34,963 nt of DNA from an uncultured Burkholderiales bacterium (GTDB lineage: Bacteria; Pseudomonadota; Gammaproteobacteria; Burkholderiales; Burkholderiaceae_C): positions 1-34,963 of the forward strand of contig CAIKYO010000340.1 in assembly GCA_903831655.1 (NCBI GenBank), given 5' to 3'. This document shows, one piece after another, positions 27,148 through 32,335 of this stretch. Made by a program: the position numbers and the translations under genes. The notes below the pieces were generated by a model. The model was given only the letters and a program-made list of their open reading frames with translations. It was not told the origin of the DNA and did no database searches. How positions within the stretch are numbered: position 1 is the first letter of the stretch; each line of letters begins with the position of its first letter.

Positions 27148-27166
27148 CATTGGCCAATGATATATT
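27148..27166 (+). promoter_or_regulatory. Extended -10 promoter with palindrome before the potassium channel gene
   Basis: The perfect 12-bp palindrome CATTGGCCAATG (27148-27159) overlaps the TG of an extended -10, TGATATATT (27158-27166). The expected start is near 27173, giving a 31-nt leader to the ATG. A regulator bound at the palindrome would block polymerase. Confidence 0.5.
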
Positions 27167-27203
27167 GTGTCCATTGAAAAAACACATCAGAGGTGTAACG
27201 GGC

Positions 27204-28370
27204 ATGAAACAGGTGTTAAAAAAAATCAACTTCATCTCCTACATCTATCAGGCCGTGTTGGCTTTTGTACATGCAAACCGGGGCAAGACGTTTCGCCAAA
27301 AAGTCTACGCGATGTTCAACCCCAGTCCCACGTCGGGGCATTTGCACGGCATCATTGACAATGTGATTGTGATGAGCGTCTTGGTCTCGGTCATCTGCGT
27401 GATCCTTGAGACTGTGAGTTGGATTCATCAGCCGTTGGAGCATGAGTTTTGGGTCATTGAAGTGGTCACGGTGATCATCTTCTCACTTGAATATTGTGCC
27501 CGTTTGTACTCTTGTTGCGAGGAAGAGGAGTATCGCCATCCGGTGATGGGACGCATCAAATACATGTTCACCCTGAGCGTGCTCATTGATTTACTGGCCA
27601 TCTTTCCGTTCTACGTTGGGTTGGTCTTTCAAGAGACCTTGGATTTGCGTTTCCTGCGGGTGTTTAGGCTCGCCAGGCTCTTAAAGCTCACCCGCTACAC
27701 CGGTACGATCAACACCCTTTACAAAGCGGTCATGCGTGAGGCTCGAGTCTTGGTGGCAGCCGCATTCATGATGATTTTGTTGGTCATTTTGACGGCGAGC
27801 TTGGGCTTTGAATTTGAGCACAACGCACAGCCCGCTAATTTTGATAGCATCCCTTCAGCCATGTATTGGGCCGTGATCACGCTCTCCAGCGTGGGCTATG
27901 GTGACATGGTCCCTTTGACGCCCATTGGCCGCACGGTGACGGCCATCATCAGCTTGATTGGCATTGGTATCTTTGCCATTCCAGCGGGTTTGATGGCTTC
28001 AGCATTCACCGATCAACTGCGCATCGACCGGGAAGTCTTTGAAAACGAATTTAGAGATTTAATCATCAAAGGGAAACTCTCTTTGCATGACCGACAAGCG
28101 TTGAGAGCAGAGGCTGAGCGTTTGCACCTCAATGATGAGAACATCGAGGCCATCACCACGAGAGTTAAACAAGAGTTGATTCAAAGCGGGGAGGCCATTG
28201 CTGAGGACATTTCTCCAGAGCTTTTGATGGAGCATTACCGGCAAAAGGTCAGTCAACTCAAGCTTTATGTTTTGGCCTCTCAAGCTCAAAGCATTGAGGA
28301 TCTTTTGATGCAATCTAAGCATTCAAGCGAACTTGAAAGAGACATTTGGAATGCATTGAAGTCGCGCTGA
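27204..28370 (+). CDS. Voltage-gated potassium channel family protein (six-transmembrane ion transporter)
   Basis: A 388-residue protein from the ATG at 27204, with GAGGTG 8 nt upstream. It has the full Kv layout: S1 about 50-70, S2 about 82-105, S3 about 118-135, an S4 voltage sensor with a basic residue at every third position (Arg149, Arg152, Arg155, Arg158, Lys161, Arg164), S5, a pore loop with selectivity filter SVGYGD (229-234), and S6 ending near 265. A cytoplasmic tail of about 120 residues is charged and helical (RDLIIKGKLSLHDRQALRAEAERL). It has no cyclic-nucleotide-binding or RCK domain that I can see. It should pass K+ in the inner membrane. It is a single-gene unit between divergent and downstream operons. 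Confidence 0.93.
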   Translation: MKQVLKKINFISYIYQAVLAFVHANRGKTFRQKVYAMFNPSPTSGHLHGIIDNVIVMSVLVSVICVILETVSWIHQPLEHEFWVIEVVTVIIFSLEYCARLYSCCEEEEYRHPVMGRIKYMFTLSVLIDLLAIFPFYVGLVFQETLDLRFLRVFRLARLLKLTRYTGTINTLYKAVMREARVLVAAAFMMILLVILTASLGFEFEHNAQPANFDSIPSAMYWAVITLSSVGYGDMVPLTPIGRTVTAIISLIGIGIFAIPAGLMASAFTDQLRIDREVFENEFRDLIIKGKLSLHDRQALRAEAERLHLNDENIEAITTRVKQELIQSGEAIAEDISPELLMEHYRQKVSQLKLYVLASQAQSIEDLLMQSKHSSELERDIWNALKSR

Positions 28371-28410
28371 CTTTGCGCTTTCGTCCCATGCATTCAAGAT
28401 AGGATTTAAA

Positions 28411-28424
28411 TTGATCTCGATCAA
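28411..28424. promoter_or_regulatory. FNR/ANR-type binding site
   Basis: TTGATCTCGATCAA, a perfect match to the FNR/ANR/CRP-family half-site pattern TTGAT-N4-ATCAA. It lies 40 bp after the channel gene stop and about 325 bp before the enoyl reductase gene. Centred at 28417.5, a class II promoter would start near 28459; a loose -10 (TATTTG, 28444-28449) is close to that position. Confidence 0.62.
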
Positions 28425-28507
28425 TGGAACGCTCGATAGTTCATATTTGCACTGGGTGGGGATGATTTGATAGCGACTTTTTGAATGCTTTAGATGTAAT
28501 GTTGGGT

Positions 28508-28534
28508 TTGTTTTTTTGAGTGCGTACGTATAAT
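28508..28534 (+). promoter_or_regulatory. Possible promoter of the reductase-phosphotransacylase-kinase operon
   Basis: A perfect -10 TATAAT (28529-28534) with a weak -35, TTGTTT, 15 bp upstream. It lies inside the 378-bp gap 28371-28748. That gap also holds the FNR-type box and a nested inverted repeat; no gene was supported in it. A 61-codon minus-strand frame lacks a ribosome site. Confidence 0.4.
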
Positions 28535-28540
28535 TCTCCG

Positions 28541-28586
28541 AGGTGTACGACTTGGCTTAAAAACGTTTTAAATCGATGTGACACCT
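28541..28586 (+). repeat. Nested inverted repeats in the operon leader
   Basis: Outer arms AGGTGT (28541-28546) and ACACCT (28581-28586) enclose an inner repeat TTAAAA-ACG-TTTTAA (28557-28571). The element starts where transcription from the TATAAT at 28529 would begin, so it would fold at the very 5' end of the message. Confidence 0.4.
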
Positions 28587-28748
28587 TCAAATGAACCCTC
28601 AAAATCTCTCTCAACACCCCAATCATTTATGCGACTTCACCAAAGTGTTCGAGTGCACAAAAACCGGCCTTGAAAATCCGCTCGTCTGGGGTCATTCGCA
28701 ATGCCCCGGGTAAAAATGTTTTAATGCTTTATGAGGATTGAAAATCAC

Positions 28749-29528
28749 ATGTTAGATACAAAATCAAAGTTTAGTTTGTTGGGTAAAAAAGGTTTGATCC
28801 TGGGCGTTGCAAACGAGCACAGCATTGCCTGGGGGTGTGCGTTAATGGCCAAAGAGATGGGGGCCCAACTGGTGGTCACTTGTTTGAATGAAAAAGCCAA
28901 GCCCTTTGTAGAGCCTTTGACCCAGGCGCACCAAATTGACTTGGCTGTTTGTAATGTGGAGGCTCCAGGTGCATTACAAGAGTTGGTGGAAAAATCTGCA
29001 GAAACTCTAGGGCAATTTGATTTCGTGATTCACTCCATAGCTTGGGCCCCTTTGGAGGACTTGCATGGTCGCGTGGTGGACAGTTCTAGCATTGGATTTG
29101 CAAGAGCGATGGAAGTGTCATGTCATTCCTTCGCTACGCTGGCTAAATTGTGCACCCCTCACATGAAGGAGGGAGGTGCATTTTTGACCATGACTTATTT
29201 GGGGGCAGATCAGGCGGTGCCTCATTACGGGTTGATGGGGCCCGTGAAAGCCGCACTTGAGTCTTTGGTGCGCTACATGGCGGTTGAGTTGGGTCCGCAA
29301 AAAATTCGAGTTCATGCGGTATCTCCTGGCCCTATATTGACCCGGGCTGCTTCTGGCATTGAGGGCTTCGATGAGCTCATGAGAAGTGCGGTGGAAAAAT
29401 CTCCATTGCGCCGAGCCGTGAACTTGGAGGAAATCGCAAGCTTGTGCACCTTCTTGTGCTCTGATGCTGCCTCTGGCATGACAGGCCAAACCATCTACAT
29501 CGATGGCGGCTCTCACGCAGTGAGCTAG
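28749..29528 (+). CDS. Enoyl-[acyl-carrier-protein] reductase, FabI-type
   Basis: A 259-residue short-chain dehydrogenase-like enoyl reductase. The nucleotide-binding start is GLILGVANEHSIAWG, the FabI variant of the Rossmann motif. The catalytic set is in place: Tyr150 (TYLGAD), Tyr160 and Lys167 in HYGLMGPVKAALE, with SPGPILTRAASGI after it. An ATG at 28731 is in frame; 28749 is chosen by alignment to relatives, though its GAGG is 12 nt away. It could be the housekeeping FabI or a dedicated paralog. Its place before a hydratase-phosphotransacylase and a kinase gene suggests that it reduces an enoyl-CoA or enoyl-ACP in that pathway, which is inference. Confidence 0.9.
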   Translation: MLDTKSKFSLLGKKGLILGVANEHSIAWGCALMAKEMGAQLVVTCLNEKAKPFVEPLTQAHQIDLAVCNVEAPGALQELVEKSAETLGQFDFVIHSIAWAPLEDLHGRVVDSSSIGFARAMEVSCHSFATLAKLCTPHMKEGGAFLTMTYLGADQAVPHYGLMGPVKAALESLVRYMAVELGPQKIRVHAVSPGPILTRAASGIEGFDELMRSAVEKSPLRRAVNLEEIASLCTFLCSDAASGMTGQTIYIDGGSHAVS

Positions 29529-29551
29529 TCAATAACAAGTGAGTCCAAAAA

Positions 29552-30952
29552 ATGCAAACTGAAAATCAAGAGATGATCGAAAACGTGACCTACGATGAAT
29601 TGTTCGTAGGTCAAAGTGCAAGACTCTTGCGCACCTTGACGCTAGAGGATATTCAAGCGTTTGCTGCCGTGTCTGGTGATACCAATCCTGCTCACTTGGA
29701 TCCTGAATATGCAAACGACACCATGTTTCATGGTGTCATTGCGCACGGTATGTGGGGAGGGGCACTCATTTCAGCATTGTTGGGTACGAAGTTTCCTGGC
29801 CCCGGGACCATTTACTTACAACAAGATCTGCATTTTTCAAGACCCGTTCGCATTGGTGACACTTTGTCAGTGGTGGCGACTGTGCTGTCCAAAGAGGATG
29901 AGAAAAAGCGCGTTGAACTTGATTGTTTGGTTGAGAATCAAAAGGGCGAGAAAGTGCTTTATGGCACGGCTCGAATCATCGCACCGACTCAAAAAATTCT
30001 GCGTCCCAAGCTGAGTGCACCGCATATTCAATTGTTTGATCCTGAGGCTCGTTTGAGATCACTTTTGGAGCGAGCCTCGAATTTAAAAGCTTTGCCCTGT
30101 GCCGTGGTCCATCCCTGTGATGTGGAGTCGTTGACGGGAGCCATTGATTCGGCAAAGGCGGGCTTGATTGTTCCGATCTTGATTGGACCGGCCAAGAAAA
30201 TCTTGGCATGTGCCCAAGCAGGACAACTCGATATTTCAGCCTATGAATTGGTTGACGTTCCTCACAGCCACGCTGCGGCAGACCGGGCCTCGGAGATGGC
30301 AGCCAAAGCGCAAGTGCAAATCATGATGAAGGGTAGTTTGCACACCGATGAACTTTTGCATGCAGTTTTGGCCAGATCTGAACTCAGAACCGGGCGTCGA
30401 ATGTCACATGTTTTTCGGTTTGACATTCCCATGTACAGCAAACCCTTGCTTGTGACCGATGCCGCATTGAACATTAGACCTACCCTCATGGACAAGGTTG
30501 ATATCATTCAAAATGCGATTGACTTTAGTCAGATCATGGGTGTTCAAAATCCTAAGGTTGCAATCCTCTCGGCAATTGAGACGGTAAGTCCAGATATTCC
30601 ATCTACGATTGAGGCGGCTGCGCTTTGTAAGATGGCACAGAGAAAGCAAATCAAGGGTGCTGTTTTGGATGGTCCCCTGGCCTTTGACAACGCCATATCT
30701 GCGCACTCCGCCTTGGTCAAAGGGATTGAGTCTTTGGTGGCTGGAGATGCTGATATTTTGGCTGTTCCCGACTTAGAGTCGGGCAATATACTTGCAAAGC
30801 AGCTGGAGTATTTTGCCGGAGCCAGTGGAGCCGGTTTGGTTTTGGGAGCAAGAATTCCCATCGCTTTAACAAGCCGTGCCGATGGACCCAGAACCCGAGT
30901 TGCCTCAGCCTTATTGGCTTTGCTCGTTGCGCACAGTCAAATTAAGTCTTGA
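29552..30952 (+). CDS. Bifunctional enoyl-CoA hydratase (MaoC/PhaJ-like) / phosphate acetyl- or butyryltransferase
   Basis: A 466-residue two-domain fusion. The N-terminal hot-dog hydratase domain (about 5-150) has the hydratase-2 motif with Asp43 and His48 in GDTNPAHLD and His65 in GVIAHGMWGG, as in (R)-specific enoyl-CoA hydratases. The C-terminal part (about 165-460) is a phosphotransacylase domain with VPILIGPAKKILA, DILAVPDLESGNILAKQLEYF and GLVLGARIPIALTSRAD near the end. It would hydrate or dehydrate an acyl-CoA and exchange CoA for phosphate. The acyl chain length (acetyl, propionyl, butyryl) cannot be told. It lies 23 bp after the reductase gene and 47 bp before ackA, so all three are likely one operon. 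Confidence 0.92.
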   Translation: MQTENQEMIENVTYDELFVGQSARLLRTLTLEDIQAFAAVSGDTNPAHLDPEYANDTMFHGVIAHGMWGGALISALLGTKFPGPGTIYLQQDLHFSRPVRIGDTLSVVATVLSKEDEKKRVELDCLVENQKGEKVLYGTARIIAPTQKILRPKLSAPHIQLFDPEARLRSLLERASNLKALPCAVVHPCDVESLTGAIDSAKAGLIVPILIGPAKKILACAQAGQLDISAYELVDVPHSHAAADRASEMAAKAQVQIMMKGSLHTDELLHAVLARSELRTGRRMSHVFRFDIPMYSKPLLVTDAALNIRPTLMDKVDIIQNAIDFSQIMGVQNPKVAILSAIETVSPDIPSTIEAAALCKMAQRKQIKGAVLDGPLAFDNAISAHSALVKGIESLVAGDADILAVPDLESGNILAKQLEYFAGASGAGLVLGARIPIALTSRADGPRTRVASALLALLVAHSQIKS

Positions 30953-30999
30953 CTCGTTGGCGTCCTACATTTAACACTTCAACCAAACAAATATTCAAG

Positions 31000-32187
31000 A
31001 TGGCCATATTGGCAGTCAATGCGGGTTCTTCCAGCCTTAAATTCTCCGTTTATCCATTGTCCCCTGAGGGCGTTACATCCAGTGTTTTGGTGGGCAATGT
31101 TCAAGGTCTAGAGCCTGGAGGCTCGCCGTCTTTGAGTTATTCTTATCGAGAAAGGCGAGAAACAAAAGCCGTGAGCGCTGGTCTAGGGGATCCGTTTGAA
31201 GAGTCCCTCAAGGAGCTCAAAGCGTTGCTCATGCATCTCCCAGATTTGCCCGACATTCAAGCCGTGGCTCACCGCATCGTGCATGGTGGATCAGAGTTCA
31301 AAAACAGCACGCTTTCAAGCCCCGCTGTATTGAGTCAGCTCTCTGAGTTGAATTCACTCGCACCTCTTCATCAGCCACATAATTTGCAAGGTGTTCAAGC
31401 CTTTACCGAGGCTTTTAAAGGCGTCCCCCAAGTCTTGTGTTTTGACACGGCTTATCACCAAACCTTGAGCGAGCTTGAACGCTCCTTTGCCATCCCTCAA
31501 TCACTCTCGCATTTGGGGGTGCGCAAGTATGGTTTTCATGGCCTCTCCTATCAATACATCATCTCGACTCTGCAGGCTCATTCAACCCGGGCCAAGGAAA
31601 GAGTGCTCATGGCACATTTGGGTAACGGTGCAAGCCTTTGCGCAAGCTTGGGTATGCAAAGTATTGCAACCACTATGGGTTTCTCTGCTTTAGATGGATT
31701 GATGATGGGCACAAGAGCCGGCACCCTGGATGCCGGTGTGATTCTTTATCTGTTGGAGAAGGGATATACCCATGATCAACTCCAAAGACTTTTATACCAA
31801 CAAAGTGGTTTACTGGGTGTATCTGGAATTTCTGCCGATATGCGCAAGCTGAGGTCCCAAGACAGTGACTCGGCCAAAAGAGCCATCGACTTGTTTGTGT
31901 ACCGTGTGATTCGAGAAAGTGGAGCCATGATATCTTGCCTTCAAGGTCTCGATGTGTTGGCTTTTAGTGGAGGCATTGGTGAGCACGATGCTTTGCTGAG
32001 GGAGACTGTTTGCGCTCACCATTCCTGGATGGGTCTCTGTATAGATCACCATTTGAACCAATCTGCAGTGGGTGACGAAATAGTGAAAATCAGCACCCCT
32101 GGTAGTTCTGTTGAGGTCTGGGTCATTCCAACGGATGAGGGCAAAATGGCCGCCGAACAAGCCAGAGCTCTTTTAAATCTCACCTGA
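31000..32187 (+). CDS. ackA: Acetate/propionate (butyrate) kinase family protein
   Basis: A 395-residue kinase of the acetokinase family that makes ATP from an acyl-phosphate. The start MAILAVNAGSSSLKFSVY at 31000 is set by the family's first phosphate-binding motif; the frame opens earlier at a TTG overlapping the previous stop. Other motifs are AVAHRIVHGG, FDTAYHQTL, YGFHGLSYQYI, MAHLGNGASLCA, TTMGFSALDGLMMGTRAGTLD and AFSGGIGEHDALLRE. It is the natural partner of the phosphotransacylase encoded just before it. No clear ribosome site is seen in front of 31000. Confidence 0.94.
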   Translation: MAILAVNAGSSSLKFSVYPLSPEGVTSSVLVGNVQGLEPGGSPSLSYSYRERRETKAVSAGLGDPFEESLKELKALLMHLPDLPDIQAVAHRIVHGGSEFKNSTLSSPAVLSQLSELNSLAPLHQPHNLQGVQAFTEAFKGVPQVLCFDTAYHQTLSELERSFAIPQSLSHLGVRKYGFHGLSYQYIISTLQAHSTRAKERVLMAHLGNGASLCASLGMQSIATTMGFSALDGLMMGTRAGTLDAGVILYLLEKGYTHDQLQRLLYQQSGLLGVSGISADMRKLRSQDSDSAKRAIDLFVYRVIRESGAMISCLQGLDVLAFSGGIGEHDALLRETVCAHHSWMGLCIDHHLNQSAVGDEIVKISTPGSSVEVWVIPTDEGKMAAEQARALLNLT

Positions 32188-32213
32188 AATAGCCTCTAAA
32201 GAGCTGTCTTTTT
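32166..32213 (+). terminator. Possible terminator at the end of ackA
   Basis: An 8-bp stem AGCTCTTT / AAAGAGCT with a 24-nt loop that includes the ackA stop codon, followed by GTC and six T residues. The loop is long, so the strength is uncertain. Confidence 0.42.
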
Positions 32214-32289
32214 TCTTGAATTTGTAGAGTTTGAGATCGTCAAATAAGGCACCGCATTGAGCGAAAGGCGCAAAATCGGGGGTAATCGG

Positions 32290-32305
32290 CTGTATATTTA
32301 TACAG
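32290..32305. promoter_or_regulatory. LexA (SOS) box upstream of parE-parC
   Basis: CTGTATATTTATACAG fits the beta/gamma-proteobacterial LexA pattern CTGT-N8-ACAG, with only one difference from the alternating TA core of the E. coli consensus. It ends 30 bp before the parE ATG. A loose -10 (TACTAT, 32307-32312) lies directly next to it, so LexA binding would cover the promoter. Confidence 0.62.
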
Positions 32306-32335
32306 ATACTATTTTACTTGTTTACAATGCGAGCC

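Follow-up and report, generated by a model that had tools for sequence, protein, structure and literature searches.

Comparison with described gene clusters

Gene clusters of the type phaC-(phaJ-pta)-ackA-fabI, carrying the group D1 polyhydroxyalkanoate (PHA) synthase gene phaC, are known in Burkholderia sensu lato, and the account of them suggests a role in storing acetate as PHA (PMC8231600). Here we describe a related three-gene operon, without phaC, in a 34,963-nucleotide stretch of DNA (the window; contig CAIKYO010000340.1) from an uncultured Burkholderiales bacterium of fresh water, whose draft genome comprises 3.54 Mb in 463 contigs with an estimated completeness of 99.99%. The genes encode a FabI-type enoyl-thioester reductase, a MaoC/PhaJ hydratase domain fused to a phosphotransacylase (PTA) domain, and an acetate-kinase family enzyme. 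We propose, with a probability of roughly 45%, that this is an Fnr-controlled operon draining short acyl-coenzyme A (acyl-CoA) from the turnover of polyhydroxybutyrate (PHB), which would be the direction opposite to acetate storage. Related bacteria are already known to carry this gene set; the function proposed here is plausible and more sharply defined.

The window shares its gene families with the Burkholderia cluster, including the phaJ-pta fusion, ackA and fabI, which adjoin one another on one strand, but it lacks phaC and has fabI first. The acyl carrier protein (ACP) docking patch, the kinase pocket and the Fnr box treated below do not appear in the discussion of the cluster in that paper (PMC8231600). 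The dksA-phaC2-fabI-Hsero_2407 operon of Herbaspirillum seropedicae has the phaC2-fabI order and is regulated directly by Fnr1, as reported from RNA-seq with chromatin immunoprecipitation sequencing (ChIP-seq) (PMC5934665). A triple fnr mutant of Herbaspirillum is reported to have 100-fold lower phaC2 transcripts (PMC5862806), and phaC2 is described as lying in one operon with pta-ackA (PMC8222739). Hsero_2407 may be the fused gene; the Herbaspirillum operon, as described, differs from the window in keeping phaC2 and in carrying dksA.

The last two predicted steps are those of the clostridial Ptb-Buk butyrate branch, in which acyl-CoA is converted to acyl-phosphate and then to the acid plus ATP. 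However, the window kinase belongs to the AckA family rather than to Buk, and a FabI-type reductase stands where the clostridial branch has Bcd-Etf or Ter. Another relative, the ORF-pta-ackA-fabI operon of Sinorhizobium meliloti, reportedly goes back to work by Summers in 1999. It brings together pta, ackA and fabI like the window, but it is PhoB-controlled, its gene order differs, and the description available mentions no MaoC fusion (PMC8231600). In the open-licence literature searched, we found no paper that gives such an operon a role in making butyrate from PHB.

Structure of the operon

The original prediction described a three-gene operon for a FabI-type reductase, a MaoC/PhaJ-PTA fusion and an acetate-kinase family enzyme, and the open reading frames (ORFs), Pfam, NCBIfam and the catalytic residues all confirmed it. 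The three genes are intact, lie in that order on the plus strand and are separated by about 20 to 50 bases. The fabI gene (28749..29528) lies in an ORF open from 28731 (28731-29528, 265 amino acids); its start was placed at the ATG at 28749, which has GAGGATTG just 5' of it and agrees with the start in a relative and with that of the original prediction. The fused gene (29552..30952) encodes 466 amino acids. The kinase gene (31000..32187) lies in an ORF open from a TTG at 30949 (30949-32187), with homology beginning at the ATG at 31000. Pfam identified the reductase as enoyl-ACP reductase (E 7.6e-81), the fused protein as an N-terminal MaoC dehydratase (E 2.5e-21) followed by a C-terminal PTA_PTB domain (E 9.8e-39), and the kinase as acetokinase (E 2.5e-97). 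In NCBIfam, the reductase scored above the cut-off for the PRK07533 subfamily of FabI, the fused protein, with both domains in one chain, matched PRK08190 'bifunctional enoyl-CoA hydratase/phosphate acetyltransferase' (691 bits against a cut-off of 282), and the kinase matched ackA TIGR00016 (329 bits against 293).

A FabI-type reductase without the ACP-docking patch

The window reductase retains the FabI catalytic residues Tyr146, Tyr156 and Lys163, that is, a Tyr-x6-Lys pair and a second Tyr. Positions 201, 204 and 205 make up what we take to be the basic ACP-docking patch of E. coli FabI, and here the window protein has E/D/E against K/R/K in the fetched E. coli fabI, so the basic patch is missing. 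We compared 29 cluster FabI rows (one a duplicate, two from loci with an unfused PTA) with 30 housekeeping FabI rows, the 30 best-scoring matches of 61 genomes (the own genome and 60 relatives). The charge sum at the three sites was -3 in 9, -2 in 11, -1 in 6 and 0 in 3 of the cluster rows, against +2 in 27 and +1 in 3 of the housekeeping rows, with the catalytic Tyr/Tyr/Lys unchanged in all 59. Position 204 was Asp in 26 of the 29 cluster rows; the housekeeping proteins had Lys205 in all 30 and Lys201 in 27, and their position 204 was Gly or Ser, never Arg, so the two sets differ mainly at 201 and 205. The mean net charge of the whole protein was similar in the two sets (-6.2 versus -5.3), which makes the change in the patch a local one.

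Loss of the patch is evidence that the enzyme may have left ACP, short of proof that it uses CoA. FAB enzymes including FabI are described as accepting CoA thioesters, and E. coli FabI as supporting reverse β-oxidation, in a review (PMC9118988). The original prediction had conceded that its scheme would fail if FabI acted only on ACP substrates; that doubt is weakened by the lost patch together with the reported work on CoA thioesters.

The family name and the sequence relatives of the reductase would fit a second enoyl-ACP reductase for fatty acid synthesis, used in membrane change or inhibitor tolerance and joined to its operon partners by chance. We consider this quite improbable, given the reversed charge of the patch, a separate housekeeping FabI in the own genome (38% identity) and the linkage of the second-type enzymes. 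All 12 second-type FabIs among the matches listed in the 61 genomes sit clustered with a PTA gene of the same family. Their scores against the housekeeping model were 191 to 259 bits; another second FabI, in genome G055, reached 309 bits and was left out of the count as housekeeping-like. The housekeeping model was itself matched above cut-off in 55 of the 61 genomes and at 417 to 433 bits in four others, while the matches in G012 and G031 were no better than those expected of general short-chain dehydrogenases.

The hydratase and reductase might instead extend acyl-CoA by reverse β-oxidation to supply medium-chain products or PHA; PTA and kinase would then form the exit. FabI is described as working in engineered reverse β-oxidation (PMC9118988), and bktB as lying near group D1 phaC in two strains (PMC8231600). 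However, the window ORFs include no thiolase between or beside the three genes, and we regard this reading as very improbable.

The hydratase-transacylase fusion and the kinase

The MaoC domain carries the Asp/His dyad (SGDTNPAHLD), presumably the catalytic residues of the hydratase, and 42 of 46 different fused rows retain the His. The TRANSACYLASE half of the fusion scored 276 bits to the butyryltransferase model TIGR02706 and 59 bits to pta TIGR00651, in both cases below the cut-off (410.5 and 311, respectively); by sequence it is Ptb-like, without being a Ptb equivalog. Among solved structures, that of a phosphate butyryltransferase (7vg9) comes closest to the PTA half. The other PTA match in the genome is a 901-amino-acid frame elsewhere, probably of the malic-enzyme type.

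The window kinase has the catalytic residues of acetate kinase, and the draft genome gave no other match to the acetate/propionate-kinase family. Acetate-kinase-type kinases are expected to favour small acids, which tells further against medium-chain products of reverse β-oxidation. In what we take to be the acetate pocket (Val93, Leu122, Phe179 and Pro232), the window kinase keeps the first three residues, and Ala replaces Pro232. Among 51 kinase rows, duplicates included, position 232 was Ala in 32 and Thr in 9 of the 41 from MaoC-fused loci, but Pro in 7 and Ala in 3 of the 10 from unfused loci. The exchange of Pro232 for Ala or Thr suggests a changed, perhaps wider, pocket.

An FNR/ANR-type box upstream of fabI

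A perfect FNR/ANR-type box, TTGATCTCGATCAA, lies at 28411..28424 on the plus strand and is the sole match without a mismatch in the window. The same string occupies the same place in locus L003, the nearest relative found. With one mismatch allowed, the window gave 6 matches against a shuffle mean of 2. Genome-wide, there were 41 perfect sites in 3.54 Mb and none for the pattern read backwards, and at that density a chance site in the 360-base gap before fabI is unlikely (about 0.4%). The genome also encodes an Fnr-family protein with CSNCNLKELC (CxxCx5C) and an ETVSR helix, which we take to be the cluster cysteines and the recognition motif of Fnr; the operon is thus preceded by TTGAT-N4-ATCAA in a genome whose Fnr has the cluster cysteines. 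For B. cenocepacia H111, a putative Anr box with this same string has been described (PMC9104464).

We surveyed strict (TTGATN4ATCAA) and loose (TTGAYN4RTCAA) boxes in 40 de-duplicated fused loci, window included, against 185 control upstream regions; nine duplicate or near-duplicate loci and four without a callable ORF were left out, and L007, whose region was empty, was counted in the 40. The strict box was found at 7 of the 40 loci against 5 of the 185 controls (Fisher 0.001), or at 6 of 40 when gaps within the chain of genes were omitted (Fisher 0.005). The loose box was found at 15 loci, 12 times in the upstream region and 3 times between genes of the chain, and at 10 controls (Fisher 4e-7; 4e-5 for the 12 upstream cases only). 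Low oxygen probably activates the operon through Fnr. A comparison with shuffles, in which 15 of 26 hand-picked regions held a box, was not relied on. No sigma-70 promoter was found beside the box, the 3 promoter-like sites in 28371-32317 being below the shuffle mean of 4.2. On the own contigs C177, C211 and C247, the three best Fnr-family matches each have a perfect TTGAT-N4-ATCAA within about 0.6 kb, which suggests auto- or cross-regulation.

A deleted phaC and the link to PHA

In L003, whose fused gene is 94% identical to that of the window, a phaC gene lies between the promoter region and fabI. Window positions 28407-28648 align to L003 38-280 (the upstream region and the phaC start), and 28694-28800 align to L003 1978-2084 (the phaC end and the fabI start). 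The window thus carries a scar at 28591..28741 (plus strand), with the start of a PHA synthase up to about 28648 and a 3' tail from about 28694 to a stop at 28739-28741, in different frames by their codons; about 1.65 kb present in L003 is absent between the remnants. The scar may instead be a misassembly. The genome's sole PhaC_N match lies on a different contig, beside ORFs that by sequence are thiolase-like (phaA-) and acetoacetyl-CoA-reductase-like (phaB-). The organism is therefore probably still able to produce PHB, with outlet genes that would have persisted after the synthase of their operon was lost.

We looked for phaC in the 41 fused loci that had 1.5 kb or more of upstream sequence (exact duplicates, L043 and five shorter loci left out, near-duplicates kept); it was directly upstream in 11 of the 22 with fabI and in none of the 19 without (Fisher 2.5e-4). 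Since phaC is linked to fabI, the reductase probably takes part in CoA chemistry connected with PHA. A conserved ORF of 126 amino acids stands between phaC and fabI in L007, L008, L010 and L014 (for example, L008 6804-7184); the L008 copy had no Pfam match.

The same count would fit a helper of PHA synthesis. In that reading, acetate or other short acids would be activated to acyl-CoA by the kinase and PTA, (R)-3-hydroxyacyl-CoA for the adjacent PhaC would come from the PhaJ domain, and fabI would aid chain elongation. Acetate storage is the role suggested for the Burkholderia cluster (PMC8231600), and a 2025 paper ties the PhaJ-PTA proteins to PHA monomer supply (PMC12568896). However, the enoyl reductase step leads away from hydroxyacyl-CoA, the window has lost phaC while its other three genes are still open, and loose FNR-type boxes also precede loci without phaC or fabI (L016, L021, L022, L082, L084 and L086). 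We therefore judge a synthesis helper unlikely.

Occurrence among relatives

A scan of genome contigs gave 43 related loci. The full-length fused gene was found in 17 of the 61 genomes, including 14 of 37 within the own genus. The same three genes recur in the same order in eight loci (L003 to L010) at 59 to 94% protein identity, and in further loci at lower identity, so the arrangement is not due to chance. The original prediction asked whether the three genes stay together next to PHB genes across Burkholderiales. The kinase adjoins the fused gene in 16 of the 17 genomes and fabI does so in 9; phaC is directly upstream in half of the fabI loci counted above.

A tree of the PTA part calls for a minimum of 12 changes in the presence of fabI, 7 of them imposed by well-supported branches, and for two changes of the MaoC His, one in each direction. 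One clade from three genomes of the same genus (L016, L021 and L022) lacks both fabI and the MaoC His; there, a gene that is OmpW-like by sequence takes the place of fabI, the catalytic His is Gln or Pro, and PTA and kinase persist. Decay of the His together with loss of fabI was considered as a general pattern and rejected, as L033 keeps fabI without the His and many loci without fabI keep it. The very closely related L009 and L018, from two Glaciimonas metagenome-assembled genomes, differ in having fabI beside the fused gene, which suggests a recent loss or gain.

Proposed pathway

At low oxygen, Fnr would turn the operon on. The PhaJ domain would dehydrate (R)-3-hydroxybutyryl-CoA to crotonyl-CoA, the FabI-type reductase, freed of its ACP dock, would reduce crotonyl-CoA with NADH to butyryl-CoA, the Ptb-like domain would convert this to butyryl-phosphate, and the kinase would yield butyrate and ATP; PTA and kinase could also take acetyl-CoA. 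Enoyl reduction by NAD(P)H is strongly exergonic, so where fabI is present hydroxyacyl-CoA should be drawn towards the acid. If part of the 3-hydroxybutyrate is used thiolytically, redox could be closed in a dismutation that turns two 3-hydroxybutyrate units into one butyrate and two acetate and yields about three ATP. The substrates, NADH preference, direction, stoichiometry and physiology of this outlet are what we infer from the genes. The broader idea, that supposedly respiratory Burkholderiales ferment their own PHB under Fnr at low oxygen by such a dismutation through a converted FabI, is tentative and rather doubtful. If true, it would add a branch to butyrate that differs from those through Bcd-Etf and Ter, with FabI turned into a crotonyl-CoA reductase by reversal of its patch. 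It would also be a clear example of an ACP enzyme redirected to CoA, a change that could be tested at a few positions, and would offer a candidate NADH-dependent crotonyl-CoA reductase for butyrate production.

The complete outlet from hydroxyacyl-CoA to acid plus ATP, as first predicted, gains from the lost ACP patch, the Ptb-like PTA, the Fnr box and the tie to phaC, but not as a fixed three-step unit. Several findings weigh against the outlet. The operon's own phaC is deleted, leaving no intact phaC in the cluster, and the association of phaC with fabI is not significant once relatedness is taken into account (p 0.06-0.25 for independent pairs on the PTA tree); the informative pairs all point the same way, fabI with phaC, but are too few. 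In 8 of the 17 genomes fabI is not adjacent to the fused gene, and among the matches listed these genomes have no second-type FabI elsewhere, which indicates that the PTA-kinase pair works without FabI; loss of the MaoC His does not follow loss of fabI on the PTA tree. The PTA half passed the PRK11890 'phosphate acetyltransferase' model (NF008852; 439.5 against 413, residues 166-463). The kinase scores as acetate/propionate type, with 40 bits to butyrate kinase TIGR02707 against a cut-off of 289, and Val93 is kept in 50 of the 51 kinase rows, which argues for small acids. The box is a consensus match, the loose form was chosen after the strict scan had been seen, the strict form alone is weaker, and 25 of the 40 loci lack even a loose box where searched, several regions being incomplete and one empty. 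In the literature searched, no assay of the operon enzymes was found.

Some of these points suit a plain acetate outlet or a supply of acetyl-phosphate, in which PTA and kinase make acetate and ATP under low oxygen, and MaoC and FabI are accessory or serve unrelated fatty acid chemistry. Loci without fabI keep PTA and kinase, so the last two enzymes appear useful alone, which keeps this acetate-only reading alive. The kinase is beside the fused gene far more regularly than fabI is, Val93 is retained, PRK11890 is passed, one clade has lost the MaoC His with PTA and kinase in place, and acetyl-phosphate is suggested to take part in PHB metabolism (PMC8222739). On the other side stand the nearly general retention of the MaoC His, a PTA half that scores far closer to Ptb than to pta, the altered kinase pocket, and the confinement of second-type FabIs, among the matches listed, to clusters with these PTA genes. 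We judge an acetate-only role unlikely, to about the same degree as a synthesis helper.

Neighboring genes

Downstream of the operon are ORFs that are parE/parC-like by sequence. A scan of ten neighbor proteins, six of which came from kinase-less loci, revealed no shared acyl enzyme as a replacement for the kinase; a neighbor in L011 is a crotonase-type enoyl-CoA hydratase. DUF3141, presumably a neighbor in the Sinorhizobium-type operon, had no match in the own genome, in a search whose controls matched nowhere either. Upstream, a voltage-gated ion channel gene (27150..28370, plus strand; Pfam) lies outside the proposed pathway. Such a gene is a recurrent neighbor, found near the cluster in the window and in L004, L005, L006, L007, L008, L012, L014, L081 and L088, upstream or downstream and on either strand. 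The channel protein has one Ion_trans stretch in the window and two, the tandem form, in the four others scanned (L005, L008, L012 and L014).

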